64,000 nt of DNA from an uncultured Saprospiraceae bacterium (GTDB taxonomy: Bacteria > Bacteroidota > Bacteroidia > Chitinophagales > Saprospiraceae). Numbering within the stretch: the stretch's first letter is position 1; every line of letters begins with the position of its first letter. The position numbers and the translations under genes were made by a program. The notes under the pieces were generated by a model, which saw only the letters and a program-made list of their open reading frames with translations, was not told where the DNA came from and ran no database searches. The stretch covers positions 1-64,000 of the forward strand of contig CALFUQ010000095.1 of NCBI GenBank assembly GCA_937929885.1, in the 5' to 3' direction. Of this stretch, positions 32,263-34,420 are shown in pieces.

Positions 32263-32778
32263 ATGAACTATTTCGAATTTTACAATATTCCTGTCAGCTT
32301 TACTCCTAGTCAAACTGATATAAAGAAAACGTTTTACGAATTCAGCAAGACCTATCATCCTGATTTCCACTCTGACGCTTCCGACTTAACTAAAGAAGAA
32401 ACGCTACAAAAATCTGCACTTAATAACGAAGCCTACAAAACACTTAAGAATTTTGATCTTAGGTTAAAGTACGTTCTAGAGTTAAAAGGTGCGATCCAAC
32501 CTACTGATAAGGATGATATCCCTCAAGACTTCCTTATGGAAATGATGGACATCAATGAAAGGATTATGGAAGTCCAATTTGACTTTGAAGAAACAGCCTA
32601 TAACAAGCTACTAGAAGAAGTAAATGCTTTCGAAAGTAAGTTAATCAACTCTGTACTTGGAATATTAGAAAAAGAAAGCCAAACTTCTGAAGACCTCGAA
32701 ACGATTAAAAACTTCTACTATAAAAAGAAGTATCTCCGACGTCTTAGAGAGAACATTGAAAAGATTAGGGAAGACTAA
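32263..32778 (+). CDS. hscB: Fe-S assembly co-chaperone HscB
   Basis: J-domain NYFEFYNIPVSFTPSQTDIKKTFYEFSKTYHPDFH; HscB C-terminal; start abuts the rseP stop. Confidence 0.88.
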   Translation: MNYFEFYNIPVSFTPSQTDIKKTFYEFSKTYHPDFHSDASDLTKEETLQKSALNNEAYKTLKNFDLRLKYVLELKGAIQPTDKDDIPQDFLMEMMDINERIMEVQFDFEETAYNKLLEEVNAFESKLINSVLGILEKESQTSEDLETIKNFYYKKKYLRRLRENIEKIRED

Positions 32779-32784
32779 GGATAG

Positions 32785-34083
32785 CTAGTTTACTTTAATA
32801 CTTATCATTTCACTTTTACCTAAATCAGAATTTAAGATAATTTCTTTTTTAAAATTATCGGTCTCAAAATAAAAGGCGGCAGTGTTAGGAGGTTTCTCTC
32901 CTATATTTTCTGCTTTCATAATTAAAAAATTCTCCTCTTCTCGCAAATCTAAAAAGAAGGTTGCTCTACACTTGCTAACTCGTAAGTTCCTTATGATCCA
33001 TTCTCCATTTAAACTTAAAGAGATGATATCACCATCTTCTACATTATCATCCCATATACTCACCTTGACTTGTTTGCTTTTTAAGCTAATACTTTCCTTT
33101 AGCTTAACTTCCGTCTTTTCGATTTGAGTTGCTGATGTGTTTTTAATCCTATATGACACTTCAAATTCGAATTCATTATTTCCACTATCACCAGTGAAGG
33201 TAATTCCACGTGTAGACTCTTCCCATTGTCCTGGTCTACTAGCACTATACTCGAGTATCTCTATATTATCAGGAATAAACCAACTGTACTTCATCTTTCC
33301 AAAATCACTTTTAGACATTTCTGCTTCAATGTCTTTATCATATGAACTCAAATCATTACCATCAATCGTAGATTTGAAAGTATAAATGCCATTCCTAATA
33401 GATACAAACTCAGATATATCGATGTAAGTCAATAAGGAAGAGTAATAATCTTCTATCGGATAGGTTATAATTTGCTGTGCACCCTTATCTTCTAAAATAG
33501 TGTTATGAGAAGTGTAGTAAAATGACAAGTCATCGACACTGAGATTTTGCTTATAAGTCTTCAGCGTATTATGATAAAGGAAATTGTACATGTACGCAGA
33601 TACACCATCAGAACCGATAAACATAATATTTTCGTCATGATACTTTTTTGATTTAGAAAACTGAATTGACCAACCTGTCTCGTCTCCATAAATCACTTCA
33701 GATAGCATTAAATAGTTCTCCCCTTGTACTTCATCCATGATCATTCTTAAGACATACTCTTTACCTTCCTCTGACTTGACAAAACACATATTGACTTTAT
33801 CGCTTTGATCTGCCCACGGTCTTGTTTGTTTTAGTTGGTAAAGCTTAGTCTGAGTGATGCCATTAGCATCCTGCTGATTTATAGAAATAATGAATTGAGA
33901 ATTGGAAGCACCTATTCTGACAAAAAGATTAGCGAATTGCCAATCGGTAGATTCTTCGATAGTACCATTATCATGTGTGATTATAAAATCAGGATAGATA
34001 AGATTCTCTGTAAACTGAGCTTCTACAGAACCAAGAAGGAATAATAGACTAAATAAAGTCGCTAAAAGAAGTCTTAACTGCAT
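32785..34083 (-). CDS. Secreted hypothetical protein (432 aa)
   Basis: Signal peptide; C-terminal WDDNVEDGDIISLSLNGEWI..AENIGEKPPNTAAFYF domain. Confidence 0.75.
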   Translation of the reverse strand: MQLRLLLATLFSLLFLLGSVEAQFTENLIYPDFIITHDNGTIEESTDWQFANLFVRIGASNSQFIISINQQDANGITQTKLYQLKQTRPWADQSDKVNMCFVKSEEGKEYVLRMIMDEVQGENYLMLSEVIYGDETGWSIQFSKSKKYHDENIMFIGSDGVSAYMYNFLYHNTLKTYKQNLSVDDLSFYYTSHNTILEDKGAQQIITYPIEDYYSSLLTYIDISEFVSIRNGIYTFKSTIDGNDLSSYDKDIEAEMSKSDFGKMKYSWFIPDNIEILEYSASRPGQWEESTRGITFTGDSGNNEFEFEVSYRIKNTSATQIEKTEVKLKESISLKSKQVKVSIWDDNVEDGDIISLSLNGEWIIRNLRVSKCRATFFLDLREEENFLIMKAENIGEKPPNTAAFYFETDNFKKEIILNSDLGKSEMISIKVN

Positions 34084-34206
34084 CTTCCTTTAACAAACCA
34101 AATTAATATATATTGCTTTTTTAAATCATATAATTTGATAGAAATGTTACTGAAACCTTATAAAATAAAAATGCATCCCAAAATTATTTGAGATGCATCA
34201 TAATTG

Positions 34207-34288
34207 TACCGGAAGCGGGACTTGAACCCGCACGCTCGAAAGCACTGGATTTTGAATCCAGCGTGTCTACCAATTCCACCATTCCGGC
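34207..34288 (-). tRNA. tRNA-Leu (anticodon CAA)
   Basis: Reverse strand GCCGGAATGGTGGAATTGGTAGACACGCTGGATTCAAAATCCAGTGCTTTCGAGCGTGCGGGTTCAAGTCCCGCTTCCGGTA. Confidence 0.96.
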
Positions 34289-34299
34289 ATTTATTAATT

Positions 34300-34371
34300 T
34301 TGCTCTTAGAGCATCCCGACTTGTCGGGACATGTCTACCAACTTGTGAGCCTATGGCTCATTCCACCATTT
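34300..34371 (-). pseudogene. tRNA-Leu-like remnant with palindromic arms
   Basis: Reverse strand AATGGTGGAA[TGAGCCATAGGCTCACAAG]TTGGTAGACATG[TCCCGACAAGTCGGGA][TGCTCTAAGAGCA]; the unbracketed parts match tRNA-Leu at 34207-34288. Confidence 0.7.
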
Positions 34372-34420
34372 AAACCCTGCTTCTCATTTCAAGACGAGCT
34401 GCAAATTTAAATTAGTTTCC

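Follow-up and report, generated by a model that had tools for sequence, protein, structure and literature searches.

A partial copy of tRNA-Leu(CAA) lying upstream of the intact gene in an uncultured Saprospiraceae bacterium carries a perfect palindrome exactly in place of its anticodon arm, and palindromes with the same outer stem, TCCCG-x-CGGGA, occupy the anticodon arm in partial copies of other tRNA genes across Bacteroidia families and in a Calditrichia genome. Our preferred explanation, to which we assign a probability of about one half, is that partial tRNA duplicates are redundant and that their hairpin arms have been swapped, in the course of replication or repair, for members of a dispersed family of TCCCG palindromes.

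The window, i.e., the whole stretch of 64,000 nucleotides analyzed here, contains the intact tRNA-Leu(CAA) gene, the source of the copy, on the minus strand at 34206..34288 (ARAGORN; Rfam tRNA, 60.3 bits), with a terminator-like inverted repeat (I1; 34161..34208, minus strand) just downstream. Colinear identity defines the region 34301-34371 as a truncated copy of this gene in the same order and on the same strand, ending 12 nt upstream of it after A/T-rich intervening DNA. From 5′ to 3′, the copy reads AATGGTGGAAT, TGAGCCATAGGCTCA (with one T common to both), CAAG, TTGGTAGACA, TG, TCCCGACAAGTCGGGA, and TGCTCTAAGAGCA, and all of its parts are on the minus strand. AATGGTGGAAT (34360..34370; part of the acceptor end and D-stem, nt 6-16) and TTGGTAGACA (34332..34341; D-loop end and 3′ strand of the D-stem, nt 16-25) match the intact gene exactly. 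Between them is the palindrome TGAGCC-ATA-GGCTCA (34346..34360) in the D-loop, which together with CACAAG forms an insertion of approximately 18 nt. By contrast, TCCCGAC-AA-GTCGGGA (34314..34329) replaces the anticodon arm. It is followed at the variable-arm position by TGCTCT-A-AGAGCA (34301..34313), which may alternatively be read as TGCTC-TAA-GAGCA. The T-arm and the 3′ half of the acceptor are missing. An initial annotation had described a tRNA-Leu 5′ half with three palindromes at arm positions beside the intact gene, lacking the acceptor 3′ half and T-arm; all these elements are present, and the anticodon arm can now be described more precisely as a replacement with exact boundaries.

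ARAGORN and Rfam called only the intact tRNA-Leu(CAA) and did not call the copy, which does not form the complete cloverleaf recognized by tRNA models in a functional tRNA-Leu. It is colinear with its neighbor and has lost essential parts, as a tRNA pseudogene arising by partial duplication does, and it combines an exact-boundary TCCCG-x-CGGGA anticodon arm with an intact tRNA alongside, which is how we define an arm swap. The 87-nt segment contains three nonoverlapping perfect hairpins of 7, 6, and 6 bp. Three such hairpins were found in 0 of 20,000 dinucleotide shuffles and in 5 of 9,131 background 87-mers of the window.

Comparison of the two adjacent sequences delimits the exchange. The intact gene reads GACACG[CTGGATTCAAAATCCAG]TGCT and the remnant GACATG[TCCCGACAAGTCGGGA]TGCT, with the swap running from stem start to stem end; at the variable arm that follows, the intact gene has TGCTTTCGAGC and the copy TGCTCTAAGAGCA. 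Four tRNA-Leu(TAA) loci from three other families have an identical junction, GTAGACACG/TCCCG..CGGGA/TG. The D-loop and variable-arm palindromes of the window are not of the TCCCG type. In a tRNA-Leu(TAA) copy (L306), TCCCGATTGCTATCGGGA replaces the D-loop at nearly the same site as the D-loop palindrome of the window.

Recurrence was first seen in a scan for TCCCGACAAGTCGGGATGCTC in one genome per species, which gave six loci, four of them tRNA pseudo-copies in Sediminibacterium and a Calditrichia bacterium; these tRNA finds are partly luck, as the suffix TGCTC belongs to the variable arm in the window and to the D-arm in other tRNAs. The later surveys did not depend on this suffix. The pattern GAGCATCCCGN{3,8}CGGGA matched 41 sites in 29 of 395 Bacteroidia genomes, compared with 5 for the reversed control, and the sites were mostly perfect palindromes, located mostly in tRNA copies adjoining an intact gene. 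A script applied to all fetched loci tabulated 60 distinct pseudo-copies with TCCCG-x-CGGGA at the anticodon arm, derived from Val, Leu, Thr, Glu, Asp, Lys, and Arg tRNAs, although a few rows are cross-assigned to a misannotated neighbor (e.g., L153 Lys and L180 Phe). The stem comprised at least 6 bp in 58 of the 60 copies, whereas the search pattern required 5 bp. The same structure is present in the isolate genome of Sediminibacterium salmoneum NBRC 103935 (L043) and in two single-contig genomes (G198 and G355). The palindromes are thus associated with tRNA genes rather than randomly distributed, and their recurrence in Bacteroidia of different families as well as in a Calditrichia genome lends good support to the earlier proposals that simple decay does not explain them and that they could be palindromic mini-inserts. 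At the orthologous locus, for which alignment to relatives had been suggested, inspection by eye of 180 nt upstream of tRNA-Leu(CAA) in 20 relatives revealed no palindromic copy. Upstream of tRNA-Leu(CAA) in genome G008 (L034) there is a possible Leu remnant whose anticodon-arm region has an imperfect palindrome. Neither TCCCG palindromes nor palindromic tRNA copies were described in the literature we searched, which is weak evidence given that this search covered papers outside subscription journals.

Surveys blind to palindromes gave the same picture. Sixty tRNA-Val(TAC) loci were picked by tRNA similarity alone and read by eye. Ten of them contained a partial copy (L211, L212, L220, L222, L224, L227, L228, L230, L251, and L257), L213 and L238 being left out of the count because they have short 3′ fragments only. 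All 10 copies had a palindrome at an arm, 7 of them a TCCCG anticodon arm, with the qualification that L211, which was identified from a TCCCG palindrome and a diverged D-arm, is less independent than the other nine. The other three had CCCCGATAGCTATCGGGG in the D-loop, TCCGCC-TTT-GGCGGA in the D-arm, and CTATAC..GTATAG in the D-stem. We also scanned the tRNA loci obtained by family search from the window genome and the Calditrichia genome for partial copies, with no palindrome criterion. The window case was the only partial copy in its genome. In the Calditrichia genome, Val, Asp, Lys, two Glu, and Pro tRNAs had copies in which TCCCG palindromes occupied the anticodon arm, D-loop, or T-arm; the exception was a short Lys(TTT) fragment (L117) without a perfect palindrome.

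TCCCG palindromes also form a dispersed population in several genomes, where they outnumber those of the control (10 versus 0 in G320, 10 versus 0 in G198, 26 versus 1 in G163, and 42 versus 2 in G443), and exact TCCCGACNNGTCGGGA occurs 196 times in a Chloroflexi genome. The TCCCGAC subtype is shared by tRNA palindromes and dispersed palindromes in both G320 and the Calditrichia genome. The presence of such palindromes in the same genome fits an exchange of hairpins from a pool. The window genome has just 6 TCCCG palindromes in 4.1 Mb, mostly of the TCCCGAT type, unlike the TCCCGAC of the window; TCCCGACNNGTCGGGA occurs there once, and exact repeats of the remnant elsewhere in that genome did not exceed chance. 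Outside tRNA copies, TCCCG palindromes were found as terminator-like hairpins (L090, L190, and L293), in a dispersed repeat of G320, and at the center of a Calditrichia repeat. The G320 repeat spans at least 150 nt and includes a TCCCGACATAAAGTCGGGA-like hairpin (L290 to L292, L295, and L296). The Calditrichia repeats have the forms GTCATTCTGA-x-GAAGAATC and GATTGCTTC-x-GCAATGAC (L063 to L077), and their center x consists of different palindromes in different copies, TCCCGACnnGTCGGGA included.

The truncation of the copies is polar. In the 60-copy table, upstream copies are 94% identical to the gene in the 5′ half, 92% at nt 44-53, and 34% in the last 20 nt, while downstream copies show 94% at nt 44-53, 74% at the 3′ end, and 68% in the 5′ half. 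In arrays, each copy comes with its own leader or terminator (L146, L120, and L227). Together, these patterns are consistent with tandem duplication in which one of the breakpoints fell within the gene, an intact gene surviving in each case.

The −7 box of Bacteroidota promoters has the consensus TAnnTTTG. For 11 of 21 loci, such a box precedes the first pseudo-copy by no more than 60 nt (shuffle mean, 0.8), and only 1 of 21 has one in the interval from copy to intact gene; 47 of 58 Val loci have it upstream of the intact gene. In the window, TAAATTTG (34402..34409, minus strand) fits the consensus upstream of the pseudo-copy, and the interval between copy and intact gene has no TAnnTTTG box. 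The intact gene is therefore most likely transcribed through the copy, which in the window would probably be part of the transcribed tRNA leader, judging from the position of the box. A terminator role for the window hairpin was rejected, since no T-run comes immediately after it. Downstream copies lie past the terminator in several loci and are probably not cotranscribed there.

These observations can be accommodated by the following scenario. In the window, tandem partial duplication would have produced a second leader together with ~50 nt from the start of tRNA-Leu. The downstream gene would have stayed intact, and the copy would therefore have been redundant from birth. Many loci show that the hairpin arms of such copies have given way to perfect palindromes, the anticodon arm to a member of the dispersed TCCCG-x-CGGGA family. 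This probably occurs by hairpin-for-hairpin substitution during replication or repair: an arm would be extruded while the DNA is single-stranded, then be lost or cleaved, and the gap would be filled in from a different hairpin. The exchange is visible in redundant copies only, because it would destroy a functional tRNA. The copy would be transcribed within the tRNA leader, with no function required of it. None of the loci examined caught an enzyme or a donor event. Further observations weigh against this scenario: the dispersed TCCCG palindromes of the window genome are mostly of a different subtype from that of the window, the other two window palindromes are not of the TCCCG type, a palindrome in every sampled partial copy exceeds what passive, neutral insertion easily explains, and the covariation of stems together with the well-kept 5′ halves could reflect selection.

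Such selection would be expected if the copies were leader RNAs, whose tRNA-like 5′ part and strong foreign hairpin tune the folding, processing, or dosage of the tRNA or keep the intact tRNA from pairing wrongly with the copy beside it. The location of the copy between the −7 box and the gene is compatible with this, and the inner stems vary among species of one genus with complementarity maintained (CTC..GAG, CCC..GGG, and CC..GG). In silico folding of 27 loci gave a native pairing of the downstream tRNA of 0.503 for the actual transcript versus 0.440 for a version with the ordinary arm (P = 0.015). However, the mean effect is slight, and most loci, among them the window (0.88 versus 0.88), show none. 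Moreover, 50 of the 60 Val loci have no copy at all, downstream copies follow the terminator in several loci, and a tandem copy at L157 has a broken inner pair. We regard a selected leader function as rather unlikely. Local template switching might instead have perfected the palindrome of an arm, possibly while the tandem duplication itself was arising. The change of the window's variable arm from TGCTTTCGAGC to TGCTCTAAGAGCA has the appearance of a quasi-palindrome being made perfect, and some Leu(TAA) copies retain a CTTAAA loop inside the new stem (L183). Yet the same TCCCG/CGGGA outer stem is found in Val, Leu, Thr, Asp, Glu, Lys, and Arg copies of different phyla despite their differing resident stems, arguing that the stem has no local source. 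A purely local template switch, one of the options raised by the initial annotation, is therefore unlikely for the anticodon arm, and we regard it as unlikely overall.

Mobilization of REP-like nonautonomous elements by a Y1 (RAYT/IS200-type) transposase appears more unlikely still. Y1-type enzymes act on hairpins in single-stranded DNA (PMC8266576, PMC6006769), and the window genome has two Y1_Tnp genes. On its contig C325, TCCCGATGACAATCGGGA (L270, 1244-1261) lies 117 bp from an IS200-type Y1 domain, but this is the sole nearby TCCCG palindrome among the 20 Y1_Tnp neighborhoods checked. Y1 genes are present in 15 of 21 genomes with palindromic copies versus 10 of 13 without one at the Val locus, i.e., they are not enriched, and they are absent from both Sediminibacterium genomes. 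Given this lack of association, a RAYT origin was rejected. An assembly artefact or chance is very improbable: although the draft assembly of the window genome comprises 421 contigs, the structure recurs in the isolate and single-contig genomes, and no shuffled sequence reproduced the three hairpins.

Exchange of tRNA arms for dispersed TCCCG palindromes thus remains our preferred reading. More tentatively, it may reflect a previously undescribed, scarless process in Bacteroidota and Calditrichota by which TCCCG palindromes replace stem-loops, namely tRNA arms and apparently the variable centers of dispersed repeats, with partial tRNA duplicates as its fossil record. Recombination and mobile elements concentrate at tRNA genes. 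If exact-boundary exchange of arms for a shared palindrome proves regular, it would imply a hairpin-specific DNA process without a named enzyme in these bacteria, which would also account for the spread of dispersed palindromes and of hypervariable hairpin tips. The tRNA copies give a clean readout of it because the original sequence stands next door.

Several known systems bear some likeness to these copies. The tyrT repeats of E. coli (rtT RNA) and the pseudo-tRNA of B. cereus consist of tRNA segments, repeated or degenerate, that lie within or close to a tRNA transcript; they are not known to show palindromic arm exchange. Rickettsia palindromic elements (RPE) are likewise palindromes inside bacterial genes, but they are much longer and inserted rather than substituted. 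Two RPE families end in CGTC, which, like GTAG, is a tetranucleotide tag that defines REP sequences at one hairpin end, and CGTC-type REP have been reported in Bacteroidetes also (PMC3733652). REP and RAYT-mobilized REPINs resemble the TCCCG palindromes in being short, dispersed hairpins with variable inner parts. In contrast to them, the TCCCG copies have no tag, few copies, and no flanking transposase, and the palindrome replaces a gene arm. No GTAG or CGTC tag adjoins the TCCCGAC palindrome of the window, a nearby GTAG being native tRNA sequence; the single exact motif and 6 TCCCG palindromes in the genome fall short of the high copy number of REP, and a RAYT gene flanked by the palindrome, as in REP systems, has a counterpart in only 1 of the 20 Y1_Tnp neighborhoods. 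Repetitive hairpin-forming and double-hairpin elements of sponge and fungal mitochondria are also small palindromes in RNA genes and intergenic DNA, with a conserved stem and no known function. They are reported to lie within rRNA or protein genes and between genes rather than exactly replacing a tRNA arm in a truncated duplicate (PMC2800124).

Two further observations concern the surroundings of tRNA genes. In S. salmoneum, TCCCGATGAAATCGGGA (L304, 203-219) lies in the leader shortly before tRNA-Phe, with no recognizable tRNA copy. In the region 32263-34083 of the window, a 432-aa minus-strand ORF intervenes; in several relatives, tRNA-Leu(CAA) apparently follows directly after the hscB-like or rseP-like gene.
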